A stretch of DNA of 34,253 bases from Verrucomicrobiota bacterium (GTDB lineage: Bacteria; Verrucomicrobiota; Verrucomicrobiia; Limisphaerales; UBA1096): positions 1-34,253 of the forward strand of contig JASLKL010000009.1 of the NCBI GenBank assembly GCA_030747605.1. The letters run 5' to 3'. A program made the position numbers and the translations under genes. The notes under the pieces are model-generated. The model was not told the origin of the DNA and did no database searches. It saw nothing but the letters and a program-made list of their open reading frames with translations. Positions 2,079 to 19,909 of this stretch are shown here, in pieces; position 1 is the stretch's first letter; the number at the start of each line of letters is the position of its first letter.

Positions 2079-5000
2079 AACGCAGCTTGAATAATGGGTT
2101 GATAATTATCTTGGTTCTAATTGGTCTTGGCGGTTTTGTGTGTTTTGAAGTTAAAAAAAATCCAAATGGTAAGCCAACCTTAGTTCAAAGAACGGATCAA
2201 TCCTCAACCCCTGTTTCAGTTCGAAGTGAATTTGCAAGCAATTCGGATTTCAAGCTTAGAAAGTCTTCTCGAGTGGAGTCTGGTAGTTTAGTTAAAGCGA
2301 TTGATAAGGGTCAGAAGCTGCGGTTAAAATTGGCAGGCCGAGAACCTCTTGATTTTGCTTTTCGTGATTTCCCTCTTTTTACTCGAGATTATAAAACTTC
2401 AATTGGAAGAACTTCATTGCTCGATTCGAAAATCCGTGTGTTTGAAGGTCTGGCGGCAGGTCAGATTGGAGAAGTGCATAGAGCCTCGTTGGTTCTCGTT
2501 GGAGATTCTCTAGCAGGTATTATTACCATGGCTGATGGTTCATTAGTTGAATTACGGGGGACTGATAGACGGTCACTATTGGCATTAAATAGAGAGATTG
2601 GTCAGACAGAGTTGATATGTGTTAGCGATCCTCGGAACGGGCAGTCTCACACTATGTCTTTTGATTCGGAAATTGTATTGCCAGATTGGTCTTCGGCTTC
2701 ATCGGTCTCAATCGATCCAGTCGACGAGTTTACTATGTTGGCCAGTTCAGGCATCGATCCTGTAACTGGCGCGCAGACGTTAGTATTGAATGCTCCAGCT
2801 AATCCACCACGATATGAGGCTTCGTTGAAAGTGGCAACGACTATCGTGGTGCTCGATAAGTCAGCTACTGGTGTAAATACGAAAAATAATCTTACTAAAA
2901 TTACTAGTCAATATCTTGCATTGATGGCGAATGTAGCGGCGATTTATGAAAACCAGTTAGGCATTAGATTGTTGGTGCAAGAAATGATTCTGACACCTGA
3001 TTCTTCTGATTATGAAGACGTGCCGTACGATGATAATGGAGAAACTTTAAAAGAGTTTGCTAGCTGGATTCAGCGTTGGCGGCCGGAATCAACTTACGGT
3101 CAGTCGGCTGCGATTAGATTTGGTGCAGGTTTAAGCGGAGGCACCTTGGGGATTGCCTATTTAAATTCTATTCATACTAGAAATGGTGTTGGAGTTTTGA
3201 GAGCTGGGTTTGGCTGGGCGCTTCCAAGTCATGAAATGGGGCATATGTTTGGCTCAGATCATTCACTAGGAGGCGTTATGAATGCTCAATATAACAACTC
3301 TACTAGGACGTTTTTTAAAGATATCGAAGGGCAGCAAGTCACAGCGGCTAAACAAATCCACGGTCAATCAAGCAGCCGTTTAAGTGGTCCATCTATAATG
3401 CGTAATCCAGTCGAAATGCCATTTGCAAATGATGATGTTGTTTGGTGTGCTATGGGGGAGGAAATTAGGTGCAACATTCTGTCCAACGATATGAAGCAAG
3501 TTTATCGAGGGCAGAAAAATAATCTAACATTGGCAGAGGTTGGGCAAGTGACGCCTCGCTACGCAGGTTCGGTTTCTTTAGAGGATGAGTTTGTCGTTTT
3601 TAAGCCTTCGAGTGATTTCAAGGGGACTGCGTGGTTTAGTTACAGTGTGCAGGGTGATGCGGGAAGAGGATGGCTGCACAAGGGCGATGTGGCCGTTGTT
3701 GTAGGTGATCTCGGGAGTGATTTCTACGAGATGGATTTGGCAGTAGGGCAGGCTAAGACACTTAAATTACCTGGAGATGGTGTGATATCTCAGTTGCGAT
3801 TTCCAAAACAGGCCACAATGCATGAAAGCACTAGTGACTCTGGTGTCTATATTATACGAGTGAATGCAGATGCCGACGGCAGTGATAGGATTCAGTATAG
3901 GGCGGGGAATATACGGCAGACTTTAAAGATTAATTACATCAAATATTTGCCAGTAGCTGAGCCTGATCATTTTACCCTTAGTGCAGGTGAAACATTGCAT
4001 TTCAATCCATTAGTCAACGATTGGGCTGTAGGCTTGAGAGGTTCTTACAAGACCGAGCCAGTTATCGCTGTGGGAACTAGTGGTGAAGGAAAAATTGGAC
4101 AGGATTTTTTGCCTGATGGATTTAGATTGGTAAGTGCGCGATCCAAAGCCACAAGCATTGGAGCCTTAACTGTGCACCGATCTCCGATTGTGAGAAATGG
4201 CCGCCGTCGTAATGACCCCAATGGGTTGCTTAGTTTTAAGGCAAAGGAGAATGCCACAGGATCAGGTGTTGTCGAATACACGATTGAGGATGCTATTGGG
4301 CAACGTTCTAATGGTTTTATAACCATTAGCATATCAGGGCAGATAGATGTTTACCTGGATTCAAGAAGCTATGCTAGAGGCTGGGTTCCACATAGTGGTC
4401 AAAATGATGAAAAATGGACGCAAATCGAATTTAATGATGCTCGTTGGAAACGAGGTCGTAATGGAGCCGGTTATGAGCGCAGTTCCGGTTATCAGTCCCT
4501 GATTAGTTCCATGCTTAACTTTAGGGCGACAATGTATGACAAGAACGAGTCGCTTTATCTTCGATATTCATTTGATGTGGATCAATCTGCAGTGGTTGAT
4601 AAGTTAATGTTACGTATGAAATTTGATGATGGTTTTATTGCTTATCTAAATGGCAATCGAGTTGCCTCGGCTAATGCGCCGTTAAATGCTAGATGGAATT
4701 CTGGTGCAACTGCGTTGCATGATGATCAGTTGGCGCTTGAGTTTCAGTCGTTTGATATCTCGTCTCATAAGAATCACCTGCGTAATGGGAAAAATGTTTT
4801 ATCAATACATGGATTAAATTTTGGGACTACCAGCTCAGACATGCTAATTTTATCTGAGTTAGTTTATTCAATTGAAAAGGACTCAGAGTTGGTTATGCCG
4901 TTTTGCGATCCGCCCTCCGAGCGAACAGCTGAGTCGATCATGCTAAATGGGCGCCTTAGTAAGAGTAGCTCAAAGGTGGACGTTTATTTTGTTTGGGGCA

Positions 5001-6217
5001 AAGCCGATGGAGGACCTGAGAAGGACAACTGGGATCGACATGAGCAGATTAAGCCAAATATTGAGGGGGAATATCGTTATTTAGTTGATGGGTTACCTGC
5101 AGGAGAAGTCTTGTATTACAGACTTTATCTTAATGGAGTGAATGGTCTCATATGGTCGAAGGATACTCAAAAGACATCGACTTTAGCTAAAGGGGTCTTA
5201 GTGGCCAGGCCGGATGAGTTTAATATTTTAATGGATGAAGAGTTACACCTTGCTAATCTAGACGAAGGAGTTTTAGCAAATGATGTTAGTATTACTGAGG
5301 ATACTAATCCGATCCCATTGACTCAGCCATCACATGGAAACTTAATCTTTAATACTAATGGTTCGTTTTCTTATTTTCCGAAGAAAGGGTTTATTGGTGT
5401 AGATTACTTCCTCTATAGATTGGATGACGCTGCAAACACACATAATAGTGGAGCATTGCAAAAAACAATTGTGTCTGTTGGTGACGATTGGAGTTATTAC
5501 GATAAATCTACTGCCCCTAATCGAAATTGGCTGAATAATTCCTTTGACGATAGCGACTGGCCTCGTGGCCGAGGGTTGTTGGGGTATGGCAATGGTAACG
5601 AGGTTACAGAAATTAGCTTTGGGACTAACCCTGATCGAAAAAACGTAACTGCTTATTTTAGGCAAGCATTCCAAATTATTGATAAGGCACTTATTGACAA
5701 AGTAATTTTTAAACTTTTGAGAGATGATGCCGCCGCAATTTACTTGAATGGGAGGGAGATTTATCGAGATAAAAACTTATCCAAAACAGCTAGGCATACT
5801 ACTATGGCCTCGAGCTCAATTGTTGATGAAACAGCTTATGCTGTCTTTGAGCTGGACGGTAGTTTCTTGTCTGAAGGTAATAATGTAATTGCTGCAGAAG
5901 TGCATCAAGCTAGTCGCTCTAGCTCAGATTTGAGTTTTGCTCTTTTTGGTCAGGCTTATCTCATTTCTGGCAACCGAGTAACCATAAACGTTAATTCGAG
6001 TCAAAAAAATAGATTAAATTTAATCTATAACGTTACAGAAAATCAAATTGAGGTCAGTTTTTTGCCTAAAGCAGCAAAAAGCTATATTTTGGAGATTTCT
6101 GAAGATCTTATTAATTGGGATGAGATAAAAATAATTAATGGGAGTGATGGTAAATTGAAATTTATTAATAAAATCGATTTTACTGAGCAAACGCGTTTTT
6201 TCCGATTGAAGGAATAG
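2075..6217 (+). CDS. Large secreted multidomain protein with metzincin-type metalloprotease motif, Ig/cadherin-like segments and duplicated jelly-roll-like domains
   Basis: N-terminal hydrophobic signal/anchor (LIIILVLIGLGGFVCF). HExxHxxGxxH motif 'HEMGHMFGSDH' (about nt 3230-3262) followed by a Met-turn-like 'GPSIMRNP'. 'GVLANDV...HGNLIFNTNGSFSYFPKKGFIGVDYFLYRLDD' resembles bacterial Ig/cadherin-like repeats. C-terminus 'SYILEISEDLINWDEI...FFRLKE'. The ATG overlaps the rnr stop (ATGA). Confidence 0.8.
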   Translation: MKRSLNNGLIIILVLIGLGGFVCFEVKKNPNGKPTLVQRTDQSSTPVSVRSEFASNSDFKLRKSSRVESGSLVKAIDKGQKLRLKLAGREPLDFAFRDFPLFTRDYKTSIGRTSLLDSKIRVFEGLAAGQIGEVHRASLVLVGDSLAGIITMADGSLVELRGTDRRSLLALNREIGQTELICVSDPRNGQSHTMSFDSEIVLPDWSSASSVSIDPVDEFTMLASSGIDPVTGAQTLVLNAPANPPRYEASLKVATTIVVLDKSATGVNTKNNLTKITSQYLALMANVAAIYENQLGIRLLVQEMILTPDSSDYEDVPYDDNGETLKEFASWIQRWRPESTYGQSAAIRFGAGLSGGTLGIAYLNSIHTRNGVGVLRAGFGWALPSHEMGHMFGSDHSLGGVMNAQYNNSTRTFFKDIEGQQVTAAKQIHGQSSSRLSGPSIMRNPVEMPFANDDVVWCAMGEEIRCNILSNDMKQVYRGQKNNLTLAEVGQVTPRYAGSVSLEDEFVVFKPSSDFKGTAWFSYSVQGDAGRGWLHKGDVAVVVGDLGSDFYEMDLAVGQAKTLKLPGDGVISQLRFPKQATMHESTSDSGVYIIRVNADADGSDRIQYRAGNIRQTLKINYIKYLPVAEPDHFTLSAGETLHFNPLVNDWAVGLRGSYKTEPVIAVGTSGEGKIGQDFLPDGFRLVSARSKATSIGALTVHRSPIVRNGRRRNDPNGLLSFKAKENATGSGVVEYTIEDAIGQRSNGFITISISGQIDVYLDSRSYARGWVPHSGQNDEKWTQIEFNDARWKRGRNGAGYERSSGYQSLISSMLNFRATMYDKNESLYLRYSFDVDQSAVVDKLMLRMKFDDGFIAYLNGNRVASANAPLNARWNSGATALHDDQLALEFQSFDISSHKNHLRNGKNVLSIHGLNFGTTSSDMLILSELVYSIEKDSELVMPFCDPPSERTAESIMLNGRLSKSSSKVDVYFVWGKADGGPEKDNWDRHEQIKPNIEGEYRYLVDGLPAGEVLYYRLYLNGVNGLIWSKDTQKTSTLAKGVLVARPDEFNILMDEELHLANLDEGVLANDVSITEDTNPIPLTQPSHGNLIFNTNGSFSYFPKKGFIGVDYFLYRLDDAANTHNSGALQKTIVSVGDDWSYYDKSTAPNRNWLNNSFDDSDWPRGRGLLGYGNGNEVTEISFGTNPDRKNVTAYFRQAFQIIDKALIDKVIFKLLRDDAAAIYLNGREIYRDKNLSKTARHTTMASSSIVDETAYAVFELDGSFLSEGNNVIAAEVHQASRSSSDLSFALFGQAYLISGNRVTINVNSSQKNRLNLIYNVTENQIEVSFLPKAAKSYILEISEDLINWDEIKIINGSDGKLKFINKIDFTEQTRFFRLKE

Positions 6218-6348: not shown

Positions 6349-6876
6349 ATGAACGCAACTGAAATCGGTTATAATTCAAAAATCGAGGGTAATGTTGTAC
6401 ATACTCGCCTCGACAACGCTATCAGCTGGTTCAGGAAGAATTCAATTTGGCCAATGCCAATGGGGTTGGCATGTTGCGGGATTGAGCTGATGGCTGTTGG
6501 CGCTAGTCGCTATGATATTTCTAGATTTGGTTCGGAAGTAATGCGTTTTTCGCCACGTCAATCTGATGTGATGATCGTGGCCGGCACGGTAACTTATAAG
6601 ATGGCTATCGCAGTACGGCGTATTTATGAGCAGATGCCAGAACCGAAGTGGGTTATTGCCATGGGAGCATGTGCCTCGAGTGGAGGCATGTATCGCAGCT
6701 ATGCTACATTGCAAGGAGTAGATCGAATTTTACCAGTAGATGTTTATGTTAGCGGGTGCCCACCGCGTCCAGAGGCTCTACTTGAAGCATTAATGAAGCT
6801 GCAGGGTAAGATTTCAAAAGAGCCGCATATTAAAGATAAGAAACCGGCGCGAGATCGAGGTTTGGTCTTGTCTTGA
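6349..6876 (+). CDS. nuoB: NADH-quinone oxidoreductase subunit B
   Basis: '[14 protein letters not shown]', 'GTVTYKMA', '[11 protein letters not shown]', '[22 protein letters not shown]'; first gene of the nuo operon. Confidence 0.98.
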
Positions 6877-6883
6877 GATTTAA

Positions 6884-7459
6884 ATGACAGCTAAGCAACT
6901 AGCGAAAAAAATTCAACGTCAGTTCAAAGAGATGATATCCGATGCGATTGAGTTTCGAGGTGAGTTGACAGTTGAGGTTTTAGATGCAAATCAGATTTTG
7001 GAAGTTTGTCGTTATGCTAAAGAGCAATTAGATTTCGATTATCTAGTTGATTTATGTTCTATAGATAACGACGACGAGGCGCCTCGCTGGACTGTCGTCT
7101 ATCATATATATAGTTATAAATATTTTCAGCATCTCCGTTTGAAAGTTAGTGTCGGTGAGGAGGAATCCAAGCTTCCTTCGGTAACTTCAGTTTGGCGTGC
7201 AGCCAATTGGCATGAGCGTGAAGCGTTCGACATGATGGGAATAGATTTTGTTGGGCATCCGGATATGCGTCGTATTTTGATGTGGGAGGGTTATCCATAT
7301 CACCCTTTGAGGAAGGATTTCCCTCTGGCGGGTAAACCTAGTGAAATGCCGGATGTGGCTTTTACCGATCCTGTTCCGCTTGAAGGGGGTCCATTTGTTA
7401 CAACCCCAGGAAACAAAGATTCAGCAGGCAGGGAGCCTCGAGTGAGGAATCCAGAATAA
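6884..7459 (+). CDS. nuoC: NADH-quinone oxidoreductase subunit C
   Basis: 'WHEREAFDMMGIDFVGHPDMRRILMWEGYPYHPLRKDFPLAG' is a 30-kDa subunit signature; located between nuoB and nuoD. Confidence 0.97.
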   Translation: MTAKQLAKKIQRQFKEMISDAIEFRGELTVEVLDANQILEVCRYAKEQLDFDYLVDLCSIDNDDEAPRWTVVYHIYSYKYFQHLRLKVSVGEEESKLPSVTSVWRAANWHEREAFDMMGIDFVGHPDMRRILMWEGYPYHPLRKDFPLAGKPSEMPDVAFTDPVPLEGGPFVTTPGNKDSAGREPRVRNPE

Positions 7460-7464
7460 TTATT

Positions 7465-8715
7465 TTGCCAGAAGTAAAGAACATAGAAGTTTCTGAATCT
7501 GCTATTCGTTCAGCTGAGGCTCTTGATGAATTGCAGGATCTGCAGGGGGAAAAGATGACCCTCAATATGGGGCCGTCTCATCCTGCTACACACGGTGTTT
7601 TGCGTTTGTCCTTAGAACTTGACGGAGAAATTATTTCTAAGGCTGATCCGGAAATTGGTTATCTTCATCGTGGCGATGAAAAGATTGCCGAGAATATGAC
7701 TTACAACCAATTTATTCCGTACACTGATAGGTTGGATTACCTTGCTCCTTTAGCGAATAATGTCGCTTATGCACTTGCGGTGGAGAAGTTGCTTGGTGTT
7801 GATAATGAACTTCCTGAGCGTTGTCAGTATATACGGGTAATATGTTGCGAGTTGGCCCGTGTATCTGCTCATTTGCTAGGGTTGGGGGCTTTTGCAATGG
7901 ATGTAGGAGCACTCACTGTTTTTCTGCATACTTTTAATGAGAGGGAAAAAGTTTACAATCTGATTGAAGCGCTTACCGGTGCTAGATTCACTACGACATA
8001 TACACGAATTGGAGGGCTTTCACGTGACTTGCCCGAGGGTTGGACTGATGAATTAAGTAAGTTTACCAAAGAGGTGAGCGAGGCAATTGAAGAAGCGGAC
8101 AAGCTGCTGACTCGTAACAAAATATTCATCGATCGCACTAAGGGTGTGGGCATTATAACGCGTGAGGAAGCGATCGACTTTGGGTTAACAGGCCCTAACC
8201 TTCGAGGAAGCAACATCGAGTATGATCTTCGTAAGGCTCATCCTTATTTAGTTTATGATCAATTAGATTTTGATATTCCTTATGGTGAGGTTGGTGATTG
8301 CTATGACCGATATCTGATTCGAATGGAAGAGATGCGGCAGAGTGTGCGAATTCTTGATCAATGCATTGCTAAATTGCCAAATGGACCAGTAAATTTAGAT
8401 GATGGGAAAATTGTTCTGCCGCATAAACAAAAAGTACTCTCTAGTATGGAGGAATTGATCCATCAATTTATGTTAGTAACTCAGGGGCAGAATGCTCCTG
8501 CTGGAGAAGTTTATTTTGGTGCCGAGAATCCAAAAGGAGAACTCGGGTTTTATATTTTTAGTAAAGGCGGCGGCGTGCCTCATCGCATGAAGATTCGTGC
8601 ACCTTCTTTTGTTAATCTAAGCATACTAAGTCATATGTTACCTGGTCATATGATGAGTGATATTGTTGCTATACTTGGTTCTCTTGATTTTGTGATGGGG
8701 GAATGTGATAGATGA
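7465..8715 (+). CDS. nuoD: NADH-quinone oxidoreductase subunit D (start uncertain: TTG at 7465 or ATG at 7555)
   Basis: 'MTLNMGPSHPATHGVLRLSLELDGE', 'GYLHRGDEKIAE', 'LPGHMMSDIVAILGSLDFVMGECDR'. The internal ATG at 7555 has a strong SD (cagggggaaaag) and gives the canonical NuoD N-terminus. Confidence 0.97.
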   Translation: MPEVKNIEVSESAIRSAEALDELQDLQGEKMTLNMGPSHPATHGVLRLSLELDGEIISKADPEIGYLHRGDEKIAENMTYNQFIPYTDRLDYLAPLANNVAYALAVEKLLGVDNELPERCQYIRVICCELARVSAHLLGLGAFAMDVGALTVFLHTFNEREKVYNLIEALTGARFTTTYTRIGGLSRDLPEGWTDELSKFTKEVSEAIEEADKLLTRNKIFIDRTKGVGIITREEAIDFGLTGPNLRGSNIEYDLRKAHPYLVYDQLDFDIPYGEVGDCYDRYLIRMEEMRQSVRILDQCIAKLPNGPVNLDDGKIVLPHKQKVLSSMEELIHQFMLVTQGQNAPAGEVYFGAENPKGELGFYIFSKGGGVPHRMKIRAPSFVNLSILSHMLPGHMMSDIVAILGSLDFVMGECDR

Positions 8716-9200
8716 GCTTTGAAGCTTCCAAAACACTTGAGCGTGAGGTTGATAAGCTGGTGAAGAGCTATCCGCAAAAACGTAGTGCTTCCTTAATGGT
8801 GCTACATGCTATTCAAGAAGAGTTTGGTTATATTTCAAGGGATGCAGAGCTTTGGGCTGCAGAGAAATTGGATTTGAAACCTATAAATATTCATGAGCTT
8901 GTGACGTTTTATCCAATGCTTCGAGATCATGATCCTGGCAAAACTGTAGTGCGTGTGTGTCGAACCTTAAGTTGTGCCTTGGCGGGGAGTCATAAGTTGC
9001 ATGGCCATATCTGTGAAAAGCTGGGACTTGATAAAGGGGGGGAGGGGTTGCAGAGAACAAGAGATGGAAAGTTTGGGGTGGAATTTGCCGAGTGCCTAGC
9101 AAGTTGTGGAACTGGTCCCGTGATTATGTGTAATGATGATTTTTATGAGGGTGTCTCGAGTGAAGATGTAGAAAAGATTTTAAAGGAATACGACGGATGA
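8712..9200 (+). CDS. nuoE: NADH-quinone oxidoreductase subunit E
   Basis: Thioredoxin-like [2Fe-2S] protein: 'VRVCRTLSCALAGS...FAECLASCGTGPVIMCND'; ATGA overlap with nuoD. Confidence 0.96.
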   Translation: MSFEASKTLEREVDKLVKSYPQKRSASLMVLHAIQEEFGYISRDAELWAAEKLDLKPINIHELVTFYPMLRDHDPGKTVVRVCRTLSCALAGSHKLHGHICEKLGLDKGGEGLQRTRDGKFGVEFAECLASCGTGPVIMCNDDFYEGVSSEDVEKILKEYDG

Positions 9201-9203
9201 AGA

Positions 9204-9277
9204 TGGTTGCCGAACTAGGATTCGAACCTAGACATACGGTGTCAGAGACCGCTGTGCTACCGTTACACCATTCGGCA
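9204..9277 (-). tRNA. tRNA-Gln (anticodon CUG), with encoded CCA
   Basis: Minus strand reads TGCCGAA TG GTGTAACGGTAGCACA GCGGT CTCTGAC ACCGT ATGT CTAGG TTCGAAT CCTAG TTCGGCA A CCA. The 7-bp acceptor stem, anticodon stem (one G-U), loop CT-CTG-AC and T-arm GG-TTCGAAT-CC all fold canonically. Confidence 0.95.
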
Positions 9278-9331
9278 GAATGCGCTGCGCGATAGAGATA
9301 GATTTAAGACTTAGAGTCAAGGCGAAATCAG

Positions 9332-10735
9332 ATGCCTAGTGAATATAAACTTGTTTTGAAACACGTCGATAAGACGGGTTACACAAATGGTATAGAGTGT
9401 TACCAAAAGCATGGTGGCTATAAAACCATGAAGAAGGTTTTCAAAATCAAGGCTAAGAAAACCAAGGAGGGTGTAAGCACCCCTCAAGAAGTTATTCGCA
9501 AGGAAGTGCTTGTATCCGGATTAAGAGGGCGAGGTGGAGCAGGTTTTTCGGCTGGCATGAAATGGAGCTTTGTGAATCGTAATTCTGGTAAGCCGATCTA
9601 TCTGATATGTAATGCTGATGAATCTGAGCCAGGAACATTTAAAGATCGTCAGATTATATACAAGGATCCTCATCAGCTTATCGAAGGCATGGTGATTTCC
9701 TGTTATGCCAATGATGTTAATCTCGCTTATATCTATATTAGAGGCGAGTTCCCCGAAGGTGCAAAAATACTAAACCAAGCTATAAATGAAGCCCGTAAAG
9801 CTGGATATTTGGGTAAAGGGATTTGCGGGACTAAATTTAATTTGGATATTCATGTTCACCGAGGAGCTGGAGCTTATATTTGTGGTGAGGAAACCGGACT
9901 GATTGAGTCTTTGGAAGGTAAGCGTCCTTATCCACGTATTAAGCCACCTTACTTTCCGGCCGTGCTAGGTCTTTATATGTGTCCGACCATCGTTAATAAT
10001 GTGGAAACTCTATGTAATGTGCGGCATGTAATGGAAATGGGTGGTGAGGCTTATGCTGCTCTGGGTACCCCGGGTAATACGGGTACTAGAATTGTTAGCT
10101 TAAGCGGTCAGGTGAAGCGTCCAGGGTATTATGAAATTGAAGTAGGAAAAGCTACTTTAGGTGATTTGATTTTTGGTAGAGAATTTGGTCAGGGGATGCT
10201 TGACGGTCGCAAACTTCAGGCAATTATACCGGGTGGTTCATCTTCTAAAGTATTTCGTGAGGGAGAGTCTTTCAAAATTAAAACTAAAGACAAGGCAGGG
10301 AAAGACGTCGAAAAGAAAATTGATTTGTTAGAAATTCCTTACGATTTTGACACGTTGATGAAATGTGGGTCAATGTCCGGATCGAGTGCAATAATTGTAA
10401 TTGATGATTCCGTTGATATAGTTGAGGCACTCGGAAATTTATCGGATTTTTATGCGCATGAAAGTTGCGGGCAGTGCACACCGTGCCGCGAAGGTTCTTT
10501 ATGGATGTCAAAGGCGCTTAAACGGATGAGGAGTGGGCAAGCTCGTAAGGCAGATGCAGATTATTTGAAACACATTGCTCATAACATTCAAGGAAGGACG
10601 ATTTGTGCATTTGGTGAAGCCTGTGCTTGGCCTGTATTGAGTTTTGTAGATAAGTTCAGAGATAAATTTGAGGAACGTGGAGCTACGGATGAAGCCCGTT
10701 CTGCTAAGCAGGAAAACAAGGGAGGAGTGGATTAA
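9332..10735 (+). CDS. nuoF: NADH-quinone oxidoreductase subunit F
   Basis: 'SGLRGRGGAGFSAGMKWSF', 'YLICNADESEPGTFKDR', 'GAGAYICGEETGLIESLEGKRPYPRIKPPYFP', 'ESCGQCTPCREGS'. Confidence 0.98.
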   Translation: MPSEYKLVLKHVDKTGYTNGIECYQKHGGYKTMKKVFKIKAKKTKEGVSTPQEVIRKEVLVSGLRGRGGAGFSAGMKWSFVNRNSGKPIYLICNADESEPGTFKDRQIIYKDPHQLIEGMVISCYANDVNLAYIYIRGEFPEGAKILNQAINEARKAGYLGKGICGTKFNLDIHVHRGAGAYICGEETGLIESLEGKRPYPRIKPPYFPAVLGLYMCPTIVNNVETLCNVRHVMEMGGEAYAALGTPGNTGTRIVSLSGQVKRPGYYEIEVGKATLGDLIFGREFGQGMLDGRKLQAIIPGGSSSKVFREGESFKIKTKDKAGKDVEKKIDLLEIPYDFDTLMKCGSMSGSSAIIVIDDSVDIVEALGNLSDFYAHESCGQCTPCREGSLWMSKALKRMRSGQARKADADYLKHIAHNIQGRTICAFGEACAWPVLSFVDKFRDKFEERGATDEARSAKQENKGGVD

Positions 10736-10736
10736 T

Positions 10737-12428
10737 ATGGCAGCGAAGGATATATCTATTGAGACCGTTACTGTGAAAGTGGACGGTCGATCTGTTGAAG
10801 TGCCACGCATGATGCTCAACTGGGAAGGGAATCTAGAGCCGACCACGGTTTTGCAGGCATGCAAACTTGCAGGTATTGAGATCCCACATTATTGCTATCA
10901 TCCAAAATTGCCAGTTGTAGGCAATTGTCGCATGTGTCTGGTTCATGTTGGGTCACCAGGTCGTCCTGGTCCTGATGGCAAGTCTCCAGTAAATGAAGAT
11001 GGCACAACAAAAATTTTCCCAATGCAATTGCCGTATGAGCCTCAGACTCCCCGTGGGGTGATTGGATGTGCGACGACTATAGTGCCTGACATGGAGATTT
11101 ATGCCAGTAGCCCTGAGACAAAAGAGATGCGTGAGTCAGTTCTTGAGTCGTTACTTATTAACCATCCTTTAGACTGTTCGATTTGTGATCAGGCTGGTGA
11201 GTGCAAGTTGCAGGAGTATTCTTATGATCATGGTCAGGCCGAGAGTGGGTTTGAGGAGTTTAAAGTTCATAAGCCCAAGGCGGTGGATCTTGGGCCTCGA
11301 ATCACTCTTGATGCAGAGCGGTGCATTTTGTGCACTCGCTGTATTCGTTTTACCAAAGATATTGTAGGTGATGATGCCCTAGGGATAGTTAACCGTGGTG
11401 GCTATAATACAATTTCGACTTTTCCAGGTGAGTCATTTAATAATAATTACACGCTCAACACTGTTGATATATGCCCTGTTGGAGCACTGACATCTGACGA
11501 TTTTCGTTTTCAGATGCGTGTTTGGTTCCTTAAGGAAACCAAGAGCATATGCACTGATTGCGGTTCAGGTTGCAATGTGATGATAGGTTCAAGAGAAAAT
11601 AAAATGTATCGCTATGAGCCACGTCAAAATGATGCAGTTAATGGGCATTGGATGTGCGATTCTGGTCGATTAAATTATAAGTGGATTGGCAGAGAAGATC
11701 GTTTATCGAGTATTACAGATGTGAAAGGTAAAACTAGTTGGCCGATTGCGTTAAAGAATATTTCAGATCACTTGTCGAATGCTGATAAGGGCTCAGTAGC
11801 TATTGTTGCTTCTGCTCGTCAGACGAATGAGGAATTACATCTTCTGAGTAAGCTTGCAAAACACTTTGATGCCATCACGGATTCTATTCCAAGAAAAGGA
11901 AAGGCAGATCATCTTATGATGATTGAGGATCGCAATACCAATACGACAGGGGCTCAACTTATTGGTGTTACTAGCAAGCGAGTTGGTTCAAAGCTTTCAA
12001 TAATCAAAAAGGGAATTGAGTCCGGTAAAGTGAAGACTTTGATTGTTTTTGGTGAGGATGTAACGAAGCATGGTATAGATGCTAAATTGTTAGAGAAGGT
12101 TACATTGATCGTAAGCGATATATTACCTAACGAAACTACTAAGATTGCAGATTTTTTATTGCCTGGATGTGCTCATGCTGAAAAGAGAGGAACCTTTACA
12201 AATGTCAAAGGCCGAGTTCAAAAATTTATGAAAGCCTTGGAGCCGCCGGGTGATGCATTGTCGGAATGGGAGTTTTTACATGAGCTAGCGCATAATGTTA
12301 CAGGTCTAGATGGCTTTAAGACGATTGAGGGTTTGTTTAATCATATGGCGGGTGAAGTTAAGGCTTTCAAGGATGCTGAATTAACTTGGGCCAAATTAGG
12401 TGATCATGGTCTAGATGTGGAATTATAA
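10737..12428 (+). CDS. nuoG: NADH-quinone oxidoreductase subunit G (short, about 563 aa)
   Basis: [2Fe-2S] 'CYHPKLPVVGNCRMC', 'HPLDCSICDQAGECKLQEYSYDHG', 'CILCTRCIRF...CPVGALT', and C-x2-C-x3-C-x27-C. The ORF track starts at 10668, but an ATG with upstream SD (ggagg) at 10737, just after the nuoF stop, is the more likely start. Confidence 0.96.
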   Translation: MAAKDISIETVTVKVDGRSVEVPRMMLNWEGNLEPTTVLQACKLAGIEIPHYCYHPKLPVVGNCRMCLVHVGSPGRPGPDGKSPVNEDGTTKIFPMQLPYEPQTPRGVIGCATTIVPDMEIYASSPETKEMRESVLESLLINHPLDCSICDQAGECKLQEYSYDHGQAESGFEEFKVHKPKAVDLGPRITLDAERCILCTRCIRFTKDIVGDDALGIVNRGGYNTISTFPGESFNNNYTLNTVDICPVGALTSDDFRFQMRVWFLKETKSICTDCGSGCNVMIGSRENKMYRYEPRQNDAVNGHWMCDSGRLNYKWIGREDRLSSITDVKGKTSWPIALKNISDHLSNADKGSVAIVASARQTNEELHLLSKLAKHFDAITDSIPRKGKADHLMMIEDRNTNTTGAQLIGVTSKRVGSKLSIIKKGIESGKVKTLIVFGEDVTKHGIDAKLLEKVTLIVSDILPNETTKIADFLLPGCAHAEKRGTFTNVKGRVQKFMKALEPPGDALSEWEFLHELAHNVTGLDGFKTIEGLFNHMAGEVKAFKDAELTWAKLGDHGLDVEL

Positions 12429-13576
12429 TGTTAAATTTTGTAACAGAAATTTTTTCCAGTTATCCATGGTTGATAGTATTGGTTAAGGTGTTGGGGGTTT
12501 TCGCTGTAATTATGCCAATGGTTGCCTATTCTGTAATGGCAGAGCGTCGTATTTCTGCATTAATACAGGATAGGATCGGCCCGAATCGTGTCGGCATTCC
12601 GTTTACAAGAGTTAAATTATTAGGTTTGGGGCAGCCGCTGGCTGACGGTTTGAAATCTTTTTTGAAAGAAGACTTTACGCCTGCTTATGTTAAGCGAATC
12701 TTTTTCTGGCTGGCTCCAGCTGTAGCAATGATCCCATCGTTTGTCGTCTTTGCTGTTATTCCGTTTGGCTCCTTCTTGGGAGCGCAAAAAATGGTGATTG
12801 CTGATTTAAACGTGGGAATATTGTTTACCTTCGGAATTGTATCGCTTGGGGTGTATGGAATCGTTTTGGCTGGATATGCATCCAATTCAAAGTATCCCTT
12901 TTTAGGAGGTATTCGTTCGAGTGCTCAAATGATATCCTATGAGATTGCTATGGGTATGGCAGTAGTTCCGGTTTTTATGCTTGCAGCTGATTCTGCATGG
13001 CAGAGTAATTTGACGGGCACATGGAAAGGATATTTGGACGGAGTTGGGTTATTAAATCTTTCGAGTGTGATTGCCTATCAGAGTGATAGTTTTTTTAGTT
13101 GGATGATCTTCAAACAGCCAATCGCCTTCTGTATCTTTTTGGTTGCGATTTTTGCAGAAACAAATCGATTACCATTTGACATGCCGGAGTCTGAAACAGA
13201 GTTAGTGGCGGGTTATAATACCGAATATAGCTCGATGCGGTTTGCTCTTTTTTTTATGGGTGAATATGCAGCTATGATCGCTGGGTCTGCTCTAATGGTA
13301 GTGTTATTTTGTGGTGGATGGACCTTGCCTCTTGGAGCGACTTTAGATCCTAATGGATATTTTAGCACCCCGGCTGACGGGATTATTCAGGGGGTTTTGC
13401 ATATGGTAGTGTTCATAATGAAGATCGCTGTGTTCTTAGTGTTGATGATCTGGATTCGTTGGATGTTGCCTCGTTTTAGGTACGACCAACTCATGAACAT
13501 TGGCTGGAAGCGATTTCTGCCTGTGAGCTTGGCAAATATTATACTGACAGCAATTGTTTTATGGGCGACTGCATAA
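12428..13576 (+). CDS. nuoH: NADH-quinone oxidoreductase subunit H
   Basis: 'ERRISALIQDRIGPNRVG', 'GLGQPLADGLKSFLKEDFTP', 'ETNRLPFDMPESETELVAGYNTEYSSM'; TAATG overlap with nuoG. Confidence 0.98.
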   Translation: MLNFVTEIFSSYPWLIVLVKVLGVFAVIMPMVAYSVMAERRISALIQDRIGPNRVGIPFTRVKLLGLGQPLADGLKSFLKEDFTPAYVKRIFFWLAPAVAMIPSFVVFAVIPFGSFLGAQKMVIADLNVGILFTFGIVSLGVYGIVLAGYASNSKYPFLGGIRSSAQMISYEIAMGMAVVPVFMLAADSAWQSNLTGTWKGYLDGVGLLNLSSVIAYQSDSFFSWMIFKQPIAFCIFLVAIFAETNRLPFDMPESETELVAGYNTEYSSMRFALFFMGEYAAMIAGSALMVVLFCGGWTLPLGATLDPNGYFSTPADGIIQGVLHMVVFIMKIAVFLVLMIWIRWMLPRFRYDQLMNIGWKRFLPVSLANIILTAIVLWATA

Positions 13577-13586
13577 GTAATAAGGT

Positions 13587-14201
13587 ATGAAAGTAGAACG
13601 TGCAAAATTAACATGGTTCGAGCGGCTTTATATTCCGTCAATATTGAATGGGTTCAAGGTGACCTTACGCCATTTTTTTTCATGGAAACGTTCAAAGGTT
13701 TATGGTGATAAACAGTCAAGCTACTCTGCAAAGTTGACCATGCAGTATCCTGAAGAGAAATGGCCTGTACCTGATGGTTATAGGGGGGCTCCATATCTAG
13801 TAAAAGATGAAGACGCAAATACCAAGTGTGTTTCTTGTCAGCTCTGCGAGTTTGTCTGCCCTCCTAAAGCCATTCGAATAACACCGCCTGGGCAGAGTGG
13901 GGAAGCAGATAGAGAGGGTGCGGAGAAGATGCCTAAGGAATTTGATATTAATATGCTCAGGTGTATCTACTGTGGTTTTTGTCAGGAAGTTTGCCCTGAG
14001 GAGGCGATATATTTACTTAAGGACTATGCAATTACTGGTGAAAATCGAGAAGAATTGATATTTAATAAGGAAAAGTTGCTTTCACTTGGAGGGGAAGACA
14101 AGCGTGCTTATGCGCATCATACACAGGATGGTGTGACTGAAGGTATTAAAAAATGGGAGAAAAAAACACAAGAAGCAAAAGATCAGCCTGCCTTTCACTA
14201 A
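13587..14201 (+). CDS. nuoI: NADH-quinone oxidoreductase subunit I
   Basis: Two 4Fe-4S motifs: 'CVSCQLCEFVCPPKAI' and 'CIYCGFCQEVCPEEAI'. Confidence 0.97.
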   Translation: MKVERAKLTWFERLYIPSILNGFKVTLRHFFSWKRSKVYGDKQSSYSAKLTMQYPEEKWPVPDGYRGAPYLVKDEDANTKCVSCQLCEFVCPPKAIRITPPGQSGEADREGAEKMPKEFDINMLRCIYCGFCQEVCPEEAIYLLKDYAITGENREELIFNKEKLLSLGGEDKRAYAHHTQDGVTEGIKKWEKKTQEAKDQPAFH

Positions 14202-14212
14202 TGTTATAATAA

Positions 14213-14788
14213 ATGGAAACGATCTTGTTTAATCTATTTGCTGCCTTGGCAGTGCTGAGTGCATTGTTAGTAGTCGTGAACCCTTTGAGTCGTAATCCGG
14301 TCACTAGTGCGATGTTTCTTGTTACCACAATGATTTCCATTTCTGGGTTGTTTGTTTTGTTAAATGCCTACTTTCTGGCGGCTGTTCAAATTCTAGTTTA
14401 CGCAGGAGCAGTTATGGTTCTCTTCTTGTTTGTTATTATGTTGTTAGATGTGGAAGAAACTGCCCGTAGAAAGTTACGTGTAGTAAGTTTGACCATGGGA
14501 TTACTTTCAGTTGCTGCATTGTTTGGTGTATATAAAAGTTCACTTGAAACAACGTACGAAAAGGATTTAGGTAGTTTTGAAATAGATGGTTTTCGGTCAG
14601 AACATTTCGAATCAGTTAGTTCGATTGGAGAGAAAGAAAGTTTTGTTACTGTTGGTAGTACTCAGGCTCTGGGCCAAGAACTGTTTAGTAGTGTTAATGG
14701 TTTTATTTTGCCGTTTGAAATTGTCTCTATTCTTCTTCTTGTTGCAATGATAGGAGTGATATTGTTGAGTAAAAAAGAGTTAAAATGA
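14213..14788 (+). CDS. nuoJ: NADH-quinone oxidoreductase subunit J
   Basis: '[53 protein letters not shown]'. Confidence 0.96.
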
Positions 14789-15093
14789 TTGAGCCGACAT
14801 TGAGTCATTATTTACTGGTAAGTGGAGCGCTATTTTCGATTGGCCTACTTGGGGTAATAGTACGTCGTAATCTTTTAATTATCTATATGTCCTTAGAATT
14901 AATGCTCAATTCAGCAAACGTAGCATTGGTGGCAATGTCTAGGTTCAATGGTAATTTGGATGGTCAGGTTATGGTTTTCTTTATTATCACAGTTGCTGCT
15001 GCTGAAGTTGCTGTGGGATTGGCATTGATTGTTGCTTTGTACCGAAAACGTCAAACCACTGAAGTGGAGGATTTGGCATCAATGAAATTATAA
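14785..15093 (+). CDS. nuoK: NADH-quinone oxidoreductase subunit K
   Basis: '[44 protein letters not shown]'; ATGA overlap with nuoJ. Confidence 0.97.
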
Positions 15094-15094
15094 T

Positions 15095-16903
15095 ATGGAA
15101 CTAGCTGCTTGGTTAATCCTTTTATTACCCCTGATATCTTCGGGCCTGATTGGTATTGGTGCTTTTCGTTCGAAGCCCGTGAGTGCCGGGTTTTCCATTG
15201 GCGCAGTAACGGGTTCCTTTTTGTTGTCATTGGTTATGGTTGCTAACGTAGAAACTTTACATACAAGTGTTAACTGGTTGGCAATTGAAGGTCTTAAATT
15301 TGATATTGGTTTGCAAATCGACACATTAAGTAAACTGATGCTTTGTGTTGTTACTGGAATAGGTAGTTTAATACATATCTTTTCGCTCGGTTACATGAAG
15401 GATGATAGAGATTTTTCTCGTTATTTCGGATTTCTGAGTTTGTTCATATTTTCAATGTTGGGAATTGTCTTAGCGGATAATTTTGTAATGATGTTTATTT
15501 TTTGGGAACTCGTAGGTGTTTCGAGTTATTTACTTATTGGCTTTTGGTTTGAAAAACCAAGCGCTGCTGATGCAGCTAAGAAAGCATTCCTCACAAATCG
15601 AGTAGGTGATTTTGGGTTCTTGATAGGGATACTAATGGTTTGGATGCTTTTTCAGACGGTTAGCTTTTCTGAATTACAGCTTAATGATCAAAAAGAAGGG
15701 GCTTTGATTCTTTCAGGCTTAGCAGGCTTTCTTATTTTTTGTGGTGCAATGGGTAAGTCAGCTCAGGCTCCTTTGCATGTTTGGTTGCCGGATGCTATGG
15801 AAGGCCCAACTCCAGTAAGTGCGCTAATACATGCAGCAACTATGGTTGCAGCTGGTGTATATATGTTGTGTCGTGTGTTTTTTCTTATTCAAGGCACATG
15901 GGCCATGGAGGTAATCGCTTGGATAGGTGGAGTGACGGCTTTGATGGCTGCTCTGATGGCAGTGCAGCAGGATGATATTAAACGGATCCTCGCCTATTCC
16001 ACACTGTCTCAACTGGGATATATGGTGATGGTGGTTGGTTTGGGAGGAGATCAAGATGATCACTATTTAATCACAGGAGTGGCAGGTACCGATGCCGCTA
16101 TGTTTCATTTAACTACTCATGCTTTTTTTAAAGCTATGTTATTTCTTGGAGCTGGTTCAGTTATTTATGCGTGTCATCACGAACAAGACATCTGGAAAAT
16201 GGGTGGGTTGCGTTTTCGAATGCCAAAAACATATTGGACATTTCTAATCGGCACATTGGCACTTTGTGGGGTTCCTTTATTTAGTGGCTTTTTTAGTAAG
16301 GAGGCAATTTTGGTTGTAGCTTTTAAAGAGAGTATGCCTCTTTTCTTAATTGCTGTTGTGGTTGCCGTATTAACTACTTTTTATATGACTCGATTGTTCA
16401 TTGTTGCTTTTACTGGAGATGCTCGATCGGAACATGCAATGCATGCGAAAGAGAGTCCGAATGTAATGACTCTTCCTCTTTTATTTCTTGCTGTGCCATC
16501 TGTATTTGCAGGTTACTTTAATATGCATGAACCAGATCCAATAATTCTTTTTGCATCTGTGATTGCAGTTGTGTTTGGAGCTCTAATGGCTAGAGCATTA
16601 TATCAGAATGTTGATAAAGACCCGCTCCCAGCAAAACTTGGTATTGTTGCTAAAGCGATGAATAAACGGTTTTGGTTTGATGAATTGTATCAATGGCTTA
16701 TTGAAAATGTGCAGGAGAACTTGGCTAGGATCGCAGATATTGCTGATCGTTGGATAATTTCCGGGTTATTGGTACGAGGCGTTCATGGTTCAACAGAACT
16801 GGCCGGACGCCTATTAAGATTGGCTCAAACAGGAAATTTGCAGACATATGCATTTTGGTTTACTGCGGGATTGGTTGCGGTACTGATTTTTGCATTAAGT
16901 TAG
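15095..16903 (+). CDS. nuoL: NADH-quinone oxidoreductase subunit L
   Basis: Antiporter-like subunit: 'FWELVGVSSYLLIGFWFEKPSAADAAKKAFLTNRVGDFGFLIG', 'PLHVWLPDAMEGPTPVSALIHAATMVAAGVYM', 'DDIKRILAYSTLSQLGYM'. Confidence 0.98.
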   Translation: MELAAWLILLLPLISSGLIGIGAFRSKPVSAGFSIGAVTGSFLLSLVMVANVETLHTSVNWLAIEGLKFDIGLQIDTLSKLMLCVVTGIGSLIHIFSLGYMKDDRDFSRYFGFLSLFIFSMLGIVLADNFVMMFIFWELVGVSSYLLIGFWFEKPSAADAAKKAFLTNRVGDFGFLIGILMVWMLFQTVSFSELQLNDQKEGALILSGLAGFLIFCGAMGKSAQAPLHVWLPDAMEGPTPVSALIHAATMVAAGVYMLCRVFFLIQGTWAMEVIAWIGGVTALMAALMAVQQDDIKRILAYSTLSQLGYMVMVVGLGGDQDDHYLITGVAGTDAAMFHLTTHAFFKAMLFLGAGSVIYACHHEQDIWKMGGLRFRMPKTYWTFLIGTLALCGVPLFSGFFSKEAILVVAFKESMPLFLIAVVVAVLTTFYMTRLFIVAFTGDARSEHAMHAKESPNVMTLPLLFLAVPSVFAGYFNMHEPDPIILFASVIAVVFGALMARALYQNVDKDPLPAKLGIVAKAMNKRFWFDELYQWLIENVQENLARIADIADRWIISGLLVRGVHGSTELAGRLLRLAQTGNLQTYAFWFTAGLVAVLIFALS

Positions 16904-16909
16904 AACAGA

Positions 16910-18424
16910 ATGAACTATCTCTTTTTCATAGTGATACTGCCATTACTGGCAAGTTTGGTTATTAGCTTCATTCCTGGAAGTCAGGTTAAAGCCATTCGCA
17001 ATGTAAGTTTAGGAGTGTCTGGCTTGTCCGCGATACTTTCATTGGTGGCCTTTTGCACTTTTCAAGTTGATGGTGGATTGCAATTTGAAACAAAGTGGGT
17101 TTGGGTTGAGAGTCTCGGGTTGAATTTCCATTTGGGTGCAGATGGAATCAACATTGGAATTATTTTTATGGGTGCAGTTGTGTCATTTGCTGCTGTGTGT
17201 TGCGCTGATGATATTACGTATAGATTTAAGGAATTTTATATTTTGCTGAACATTATGATAGGTGGTGTTCTTGGGGCATTCGCTTCAATGGATTTGTTTT
17301 TCTTTTATTTCTTCCACGAACTCGCCTTGGTGCCAACTTTTATAATGATAGGAGTCTGGGGCAGGGGACAGAACCGGAATTACGCTGCTTACAAAATTAC
17401 ATTGTATCTGAGTTTAGGGGCATTACTTGCCTTAATTGGTTTAATAGGTGTTTATGTTCAGGCAGGTGCTGACTCATTTAGCATTCCTGATTTGATCGCT
17501 AAGGTTAAGGCTCAGCCAATTAATGAGTCTGCACAGCAATGGATATTCCCTCTTTTAATGTTTGGTTTTGGAATTCTGGTTTCACTCTGGCCATTTCATA
17601 CTTGGGCTCCACTCGGTTACGGTACTGCCCCGACTGCGACGGCTATGTTACATGCGGGTGTCCTTAAAAAATTTGGACTATATGGTTTAATTCGTGTTGC
17701 TATACCTATGGCTCCAATTGGGGCTCAATTTTGGCTAGGTATTCTTGCATGGCTGGCATTAGCTAATCTGCTTTTCTGTGGTTTGGTGGCTGTAAGGCAA
17801 AGAGACTTAAACCTTTTAATTGGTAATTCAAGTGTTGCTCATATGGGTTTTATATTTTTGGGAATTGCTAGCCTGAATATCATAGGACTGACGGGTGCAG
17901 TCCTAGTCATGATTGCCCATGGATTACTGGCTGCATTAGCTTTTGGTGTGAGTGGGCATTTGTATCAGCAAAATGGTTCGCTTGATATGTCTCAGATGGG
18001 GGGATTACTTCGTAAAATGCCTTTGGCTGGGACTGCCTTGCTTATGGCAATGATGGCCGGGTGCGGGCTTCCGGGGTTTGCTAATTTTGCTGGAGAGATA
18101 ACTATCTTTTTTGCGGCTTGGTCTGCGGGGTTTAAAGTAATAACTGTCATTGCGGCTTGGAGTGCACTAGTGGTAGGTGGTTTATATATGCTCAGGGCCA
18201 TCCGCAATATTTTGCACGGTGCACAACCTGATGTTTGGAAAAAGACAAGAGATTCAAGCCCCTTGCCTACAACTGCATTCGGTTTGTTGTTGGCATTACT
18301 CTTAGTTTTTGGTTTCGCACCTGGTCTTCTGACCAAAGGGATCGAATTAGAAGTTAAAAAAATTGTGTATTTGGTTAAGCCTGAAATAAATGAGGCTAAG
18401 CAGTTGAGTGTAGTGGCAAAATGA
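16910..18424 (+). CDS. nuoM: NADH-quinone oxidoreductase subunit M
   Basis: 'FFFYFFHELALVPTFIMIGVWG', 'WPFHTWAPLGYGTAPTATAMLHAGVLKKFGLYGLIR'; position after nuoL. Confidence 0.96.
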   Translation: MNYLFFIVILPLLASLVISFIPGSQVKAIRNVSLGVSGLSAILSLVAFCTFQVDGGLQFETKWVWVESLGLNFHLGADGINIGIIFMGAVVSFAAVCCADDITYRFKEFYILLNIMIGGVLGAFASMDLFFFYFFHELALVPTFIMIGVWGRGQNRNYAAYKITLYLSLGALLALIGLIGVYVQAGADSFSIPDLIAKVKAQPINESAQQWIFPLLMFGFGILVSLWPFHTWAPLGYGTAPTATAMLHAGVLKKFGLYGLIRVAIPMAPIGAQFWLGILAWLALANLLFCGLVAVRQRDLNLLIGNSSVAHMGFIFLGIASLNIIGLTGAVLVMIAHGLLAALAFGVSGHLYQQNGSLDMSQMGGLLRKMPLAGTALLMAMMAGCGLPGFANFAGEITIFFAAWSAGFKVITVIAAWSALVVGGLYMLRAIRNILHGAQPDVWKKTRDSSPLPTTAFGLLLALLLVFGFAPGLLTKGIELEVKKIVYLVKPEINEAKQLSVVAK

Positions 18425-18430
18425 TACGTT

Positions 18431-19909
18431 ATGAGTGAACAATTAAAATTTGTGCAGCTTGAAATGATGGTTGTAGCTCTGGGCTTAATTGTCTTGATTG
18501 CCGACCTAGTAATGCCTCCTTCAAAACGGCGTCTTATTGGGCATCTCTCTGCAGTAGCTCTTGGGCTGATTTTTCTTTTTAGTCTGCGTGATAGTTATGT
18601 TGGTTTAATAAACGAGAGTACAGACTTATTTTTTAACTCGCGTTATAAAATTGATGGTCTAGCTATATTTTTTAAGAGGTTCTTTATATTAGCAGCAATA
18701 TTCGTGTTAATATTCGCTGTGGATTTTGCAGACAGGATTCGATCTGGGATTTCAGAATACTATGCATTTATTATTTTTGCATTAGCGGGGATGATGTTTG
18801 CAGCTTCGGCGAACGATTTTAGTATGCTGTTTGTCTCAATCGAATTAATTACAGTTACATTTTACATTCTCGTTAGTTACCAACGACATCGATTGCAATC
18901 TCTTGAAGCTGGTGTAAAGTACTTGATCCTTGGCGCGGTTTCTTCTGCCTTTATGATATATGGAATTGCGCTTGTTTTTGGGGAGGCTGGAAGTTTGAAG
19001 TTTGAAGACATAAACGCCAAGCAGTCAGAATTACTTGGCAGTAAGGTGTTCCTTTTTGGCATGTTATTTTTATTTGCAGGATTGGCATTTAAGATTTCTG
19101 CGTTTCCATTCCAGGTTTGGGCGCCGGATGTTTATCAAGGGGCGCCTACCCCTACTACGGCGTTTTTGTCGCTTGGATCAAAAGCTGCAGGTTTTGTTCT
19201 TTTGATTAGGTTACTTGTTTTTACTATTCCTGATTTAACTCGGGAATGGACAGTTCTATTGATTGGCATTTCTGCTGTAACGATTCTTTATGGGAATCTT
19301 TGTGCATTGCCACAGCGTAACCTTAAGCGGCTTTTGGCATATTCGGGCATTGCAAATGCTGGATATTTGCTTATGGGCATTGTTGCCCAGTCTGAAGATG
19401 GTACAGCAGCAATTCTTTATTATTTAGCTGGTTACCTGTTTGCACTGATGACTGTATTTCTAATAATTAATTTAATTACTAAAGAGGGCGAAGGGGAGGA
19501 TATATCTTGTTTGGAAAACTTAAACAAACGTTCGCCTTTTCTTGCTGCTGCAATGACTTTAGCCGCAATCTCTCTAGCCGGCATACCTCCACTAGCAGGT
19601 TTTTTTGGTAAATTTTTATTGATTAAATCAGTTGCTGTTGAGGCCTTTGGTAACACTGGTTATTTTGTTTTACTCGCAGTAGCAGTCTTTGGTGTTGTGA
19701 TATCTATTTATTATTATTTTGGAATTGTTCGAGCAATTTTTTGGAATCATAAAGCCGATGATAAAACTCCTATTTTTGTTGTGGTCCCAATTCGTTTTGC
19801 ACTGATTTGTTGTTTTGCCGGAATGCTTTATCTCGGGCTGCTTCCAAATAAACCGATGAAGTGGGTTGAATCAGCAGCCGTTTCGTTAATTAAAACAACA
19901 GCAGAATGA
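18431..19909 (+). CDS. nuoN: NADH-quinone oxidoreductase subunit N
   Basis: 'FKISAFPFQVWAPDVYQGAPTPTTAFLSLGSKAAGF', 'RNLKRLLAYSGIANAGYLLMG'; last nuo gene. Confidence 0.96.
   Translation: MSEQLKFVQLEMMVVALGLIVLIADLVMPPSKRRLIGHLSAVALGLIFLFSLRDSYVGLINESTDLFFNSRYKIDGLAIFFKRFFILAAIFVLIFAVDFADRIRSGISEYYAFIIFALAGMMFAASANDFSMLFVSIELITVTFYILVSYQRHRLQSLEAGVKYLILGAVSSAFMIYGIALVFGEAGSLKFEDINAKQSELLGSKVFLFGMLFLFAGLAFKISAFPFQVWAPDVYQGAPTPTTAFLSLGSKAAGFVLLIRLLVFTIPDLTREWTVLLIGISAVTILYGNLCALPQRNLKRLLAYSGIANAGYLLMGIVAQSEDGTAAILYYLAGYLFALMTVFLIINLITKEGEGEDISCLENLNKRSPFLAAAMTLAAISLAGIPPLAGFFGKFLLIKSVAVEAFGNTGYFVLLAVAVFGVVISIYYYFGIVRAIFWNHKADDKTPIFVVVPIRFALICCFAGMLYLGLLPNKPMKWVESAAVSLIKTTAE

Follow-up and report, generated by a model that had tools for sequence, protein, structure and literature searches.

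How does the operon for respiratory complex I come to hold a tRNA gene that faces it, and how are the nuo genes beyond that tRNA expressed? The question was raised by the window, the whole 34,253-nucleotide stretch of DNA analyzed here, in which thirteen genes (nuoB-C-D-E-F-G-H-I-J-K-L-M-N; 6349..19909) all lie on the plus strand and a minus-strand tRNA gene parts nuoE (8712..9200) from nuoF (9332..10735). No nuoA was found within the cluster, and the operon begins with nuoB. Elsewhere in the window, RNase R is adjoined by a 1380-aa protein (2075-6217) whose match to a tandem-95-type repeat falls below the curated cut-off.

An antisense tRNA-Gln(CUG) gene between nuoE and nuoF

The minus-strand segment 9204-9277 was identified by ARAGORN as tRNA-Gln with anticodon ctg and scored 65.9 bits with Rfam RF00005 (cut-off 29; E 2.3e-12). 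The gene is 74 nt long including an encoded CCA, which reads as TGG on the plus strand at 9204-9206, and has a canonical-size cloverleaf and a coherent anticodon. The first-pass annotation had described a canonical, CCA-encoding tRNA-Gln(CUG), antisense to a 13-gene nuo operon, with its 3' CCA end 3 nt from the nuoE stop codon (TGA, 9198-9200), and every part of this description was borne out; neither ARAGORN nor RF00005 gave a pseudo-tRNA. No second tRNA-Gln was found among the tRNAs of the window's source MAG (2.53 Mb, 74% complete), so that the antisense gene is the only tRNA-Gln found in that assembly; Gln(TTG) is located elsewhere in more complete relatives of the MAG. A chance origin of the tRNA is excluded by its covariation and its conservation across an order, and the gene is predicted, as part of the best explanation given below, to be a functional, single-site gene whose transcript would be matured and charged.

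Antisense orientation alone was rejected as an oddity because four other tRNAs of genome G000 likewise lie antisense between co-directional ORFs, as judged by a rough ORF rule. A tRNA-Thr of the window's genome (L007) is also antisense, at distances of 13 and 94 nt to two co-directional ORFs.

Covariation in relatives revealed which strand is under selection. Among 17 distinct tRNA sequences, 99.2% of stem cells were paired and 45 stem cells had changed on both sides, values that were matched by none of 500 shuffles; 8 pairs had changes on both sides. A nuo mRNA read through the junction would carry the complement of the tRNA, and this complement had been proposed to fold as a cloverleaf in its own right. 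The plus strand can indeed fold (-23.2 kcal/mol, z -2.38), but no structure is kept there and the substitutions favor the tRNA strand only: a strand test on 34 distinct sequences counted 45 G-U and no A-C, where 34 of the 45 G-U represent one invariant D-stem pair and the remaining 11 agree in direction. An A-C in the tRNA would be a G-U on the nuo mRNA; since it was never seen, pairing is kept on the tRNA strand. It is very improbable that the complement is a selected RNA element of the nuo mRNA, such as a processing site or an attenuator, and the antisense cloverleaf was rejected as one: its fold follows from complementarity to the tRNA, and each G-U of the tRNA is an A-C mismatch on the mRNA. 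The same counts separate the locus from the mitochondrial antisense ("mirror") tRNAs proposed in PMC2907346, which it resembles in having a tRNA complement within a long transcript; unlike mirror tRNAs, the complement strand gave no sign of being kept as a structure or as a tRNA.

Conservation and probable origin of the arrangement

The nuoE-nuoF junction was compared in 144 Limisphaerales genomes that were at least 90% complete and represented about 48 families. In 128 of the 144, among which the window's own genome is counted, a tRNA-Gln immediately upstream of nuoF was found on the same contig and the opposite strand. The arrangement was also present on short contigs with a nuoF fragment in four more genomes (G021, G089, G104, and G149), which brought the total to 132. 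Five genomes (G126, G142, G143, G056, and G116) were left undecided, with a contig end near nuoF or a partial NuoF. The arrangement is thus conserved in 132 of 133 decidable genomes, and in a set of 40 relatives the tRNA was present at every retrieved nuoF locus with upstream DNA. A NuoF scan of named genomes placed the nearest named relatives in Verrucomicrobiota subdivision 3 (Limisphaerales, Pedosphaera), where an antisense tRNA-Gln(ctg) was found in all 11 subdivision 3-type loci with upstream DNA (L054-L062, L102, and L103; L063 was cut off at a contig end). No antisense tRNA was found at nuoF in 68 loci from other Verrucomicrobiota orders and other phyla. A literature search of limited scope, in which absence is not proof, found no description of a tRNA between nuoE and nuoF or of antisense tRNA genes inside bacterial operons.

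Other tRNA genes of the order differ in how stable their placement is. The best-shared neighbor family was common to 2 of 22 tRNA-Phe loci and to 4 of 18 tRNA-Gln(TTG) loci in Limisphaerales; tRNA-Gln(CTG) had nuoF as its neighbor in 30 of 30 loci and nuoE in 29. The neighbors of tRNA-Trp, which we take to be tuf, secE, and nusG, were common to 27 of 27 Limisphaerales loci. The order tuf - tRNA-Trp - secE - nusG is like the nuo locus in that a tRNA is locked between protein genes across the order, but tRNA-Trp is co-directional with its neighbors and tRNA-Gln(CUG) is antisense. The stability of placement of tRNA-Gln(CTG) is owed partly to the operon itself. Small tRNA arrays, with Gln ttg, Gln ctg, or Leu gag close by, were observed in genomes of family f48 (L208, L209, and L210), possibly on mobile elements.

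The one real exception was G050, in which nuoE and nuoF are 41 nt apart with no tRNA between them and tRNA-Gln(ctg) is located elsewhere in the genome. The NuoF tree placed G050 as the sister lineage of the remaining 40 members of the order (87/64 support, 83% of bootstrap trees), a basal position that is moderately supported and that comes from one MAG, the only sampled member of its family, which makes the evidence for an empty site thin. Outgroup nuoE-nuoF junctions had no tRNA and measured mostly 0-50 nt where nuoE was located upstream; outgroup tRNA-Gln(ctg), where found, was solitary and adjoined unrelated genes. The G050 junction looks like, and likely is, the pre-insertion state. Because the lone exception with an empty junction is sister to all others, the simplest history suggested by these sequences would be one insertion after the G050 lineage split off.

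Six genomes (G093, G099, G106, G112, G124, and G135) contained no orthologue of this NuoF; three of them were without any NuoD and three had only a second, about 48%-identical NuoD. Gln(CTG) was missing from all six and Gln(TTG) was still present in five. Thus, tRNA-Gln(CTG) and this complex I operon are absent together in six of six cases, to which assembly gaps could contribute.

Promoter motif of the tRNA gene and layout of the junction

The 54-nt gap between the tRNA and nuoF (9278..9331; the commonest gap in relatives is 47-64 nt) contains the motif of a promoter for the tRNA on the tRNA's own strand. The -35 element TTGACT lies at 9315..9320 on the minus strand, with TTGAC starting 43 nt upstream of the tRNA 5' end. 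All 81 distinct loci have a minus-strand TTGAC that starts 39-45 nt upstream of the tRNA, against about 1.3 loci expected after shuffling, and 75 have the full TTGACT near this position. The order consensus is TTGAC, a 16-nt spacer and then TAnnTT. In the window, the position profile over the 81 loci and the sequence place a probable -10 region at 9291..9300 on the minus strand, where the match is weaker and the spacing is unclear in the window's genus.

The gap between the tRNA and nuoF has grown to 189-464 nt in some loci. In these enlarged gaps TTGAC keeps its distance to the tRNA and not to nuoF, and the element therefore belongs to the tRNA; the same observation rejects the -35 motif as a nuoF ribosome-binding signal read on the other strand. 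The gap is seldom shorter than 47 nt, with a minimum of 44 nt, which is just the room the tRNA promoter requires. The same -35 was found at several other tRNAs of the window's genome; in relatives, the consensus -35 was present at none of 16 Gln(TTG) genes and at only one of 22 Phe genes, and the relocated tRNA-Gln(ctg) gene of G050 is without it. For these reasons the -35 and -10 elements are read as a normal, sigma-70-type tRNA promoter of unusually constant sequence, which is presumably used in the cell. Our guess is that this constancy offsets head-on traffic.

The nuoE side of the tRNA is looser than the nuoF side, with a spacing of 1 to about 730 nt in relatives. Five loci (L044, L172, L147, L154, and L180) contain toxin-antitoxin-like cassettes of 609-732 nt between nuoE and the tRNA, assigned by eye as PIN/VapC-like or as nucleotidyltransferase-like plus a small ORF. 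At many loci the nuoE stop codon overlaps with a start codon, and some frames stop 1-3 nt before nuoF. A conserved small ORF that crosses the antisense tRNA and couples nuoE to nuoF is unproven and probably incidental, because families differ in the frames they have and the long frames lie within lineage-specific inserts. A Shine-Dalgarno-like 4-mer precedes nuoF in 24 of 81 loci. Several other nuo genes of the window are also without a clear Shine-Dalgarno sequence, and this signal was set aside as uninformative for nuoF.

Expression of nuoF-N and retention of the tRNA gene

The reading that we consider probable is that a functional, single-site tRNA gene with its own promoter was inserted once at the nuoE-nuoF junction and was locked in by packing, and that nuoF-N is transcribed mostly by read-through. 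The insertion would date to an ancestor shared by nearly all Limisphaerales and would have gone into a short junction, against the direction of the operon. The tRNA 3' end often abuts the nuoE stop codon and the tRNA promoter fills the gap to the nuoF start, so that the tRNA could leave only by precise excision or along with the operon. The tRNA would be retained because the site is tightly packed, and packing, not regulation, is the cheapest account of its retention. Read-through of the antisense tRNA is the most likely source of nuoF-N transcripts because no conserved nuoF promoter was seen in the compact gap. The gene, its promoter motif, its conservation, the likely empty site and the co-loss with nuo are observations, and we infer read-through, use of the tRNA promoter and the reason for retention.

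Read-through would not be needed if nuoBCDE ended at or near the tRNA and nuoF-N formed a second transcription unit with its own promoter, with little head-on traffic between them. Two units are a possible but minority explanation. An independent promoter after 9280 had been named earlier as the observation that would make nuoF onward a separate operon; neither a conserved nor a consensus nuoF promoter was seen in the compact gap, a search of 8700-9800 in the window gave no plus-strand sigma-70-like site, and the conserved signals of compact loci (47-64 nt) belong to the opposite-strand promoter of the tRNA. In family f11, however, the nuoF unit is separate from nuoBCDE: in the complete genome G088 (L244 and L245) the cluster breaks precisely at the boundary of nuoE and the tRNA, with nuoBCDE 266 kb from nuoF-N and the tRNA still beside nuoF, and G030 of the same family has no nuoE upstream of the tRNA. 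The nuoF unit can therefore be expressed without nuoBCDE, and not all lineages require read-through from nuoE. The longer gaps of some relatives also leave room for a nuoF promoter. Against separate units, the gene that lies upstream of the tRNA in f11 is once more oriented like nuoF. The suggestion of the first-pass annotation that the tRNA is exposed to head-on transcription stands in part: a tRNA promoter motif does face the operon, but such exposure is expected only if nuoF is reached by read-through.

Regulatory coupling, as in an excludon or a strict noncontiguous operon, would offer another reason for retention. Firing of the tRNA promoter, stronger at fast growth, would lower nuoF-N expression because RNA polymerases collide or because RNase III cuts the paired RNAs; alternatively, nuo transcription would limit tRNA-Gln(CUG). 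Coupling would account for order-wide retention while tRNA-Phe and tRNA-Gln(TTG) moved freely and for a consensus -35 that is present in every locus but nearly missing from the genes of those two tRNAs. Nonetheless, we regard coupling as unlikely. Packing in a conserved operon can account for retention, nothing is conserved beyond a normal tRNA promoter, and the -35 is shared by several tRNAs of the same genome. In addition, tRNAs fold quickly and make poor pairing partners. A speculative and rather improbable proposal is that the Limisphaerales tRNA promoter would slow expression of nuoF-N in a growth-rate-dependent way (or that the reverse would hold), making the locus a respiratory excludon with a tRNA partner that selection has kept since early in the order.

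The precedent for coupling is the noncontiguous operon menE-menC-MW1733-ytkD-MW1731 of S. aureus (Saenz-Lahoya et al., 2019), where collision and RNase III cleavage couple both sides (reviewed in PMC7154746). The nuo locus is like a noncontiguous operon or excludon in that co-directional genes of the same function are parted by an opposite-strand gene with its own promoter motif, and transcription from both sides would overlap fully at the opposing gene. In the type example the opposing gene makes an mRNA that doubles as an antisense RNA; here it is a tRNA. The layout here is also fixed across an order, and co-transcription and reciprocal regulation are hypotheses for it. The nuo locus is therefore classed as having a similar layout, and not as a member of the noncontiguous operons, because a tRNA takes the opposing position and any coupling would be hypothetical.

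When an operon and a strongly transcribed tRNA gene meet head-on, interference between them is expected. A whole order that keeps a head-on operon/tRNA pair is a good natural test of head-on transcription, and the likely empty-site relative together with several co-loss lineages allows clean comparisons on transcriptional interference, read-through and the integrity of operons. As a rare genomic insertion common to nearly all Limisphaerales, the antisense tRNA-Gln(CUG) gene is a clear marker of the clade.
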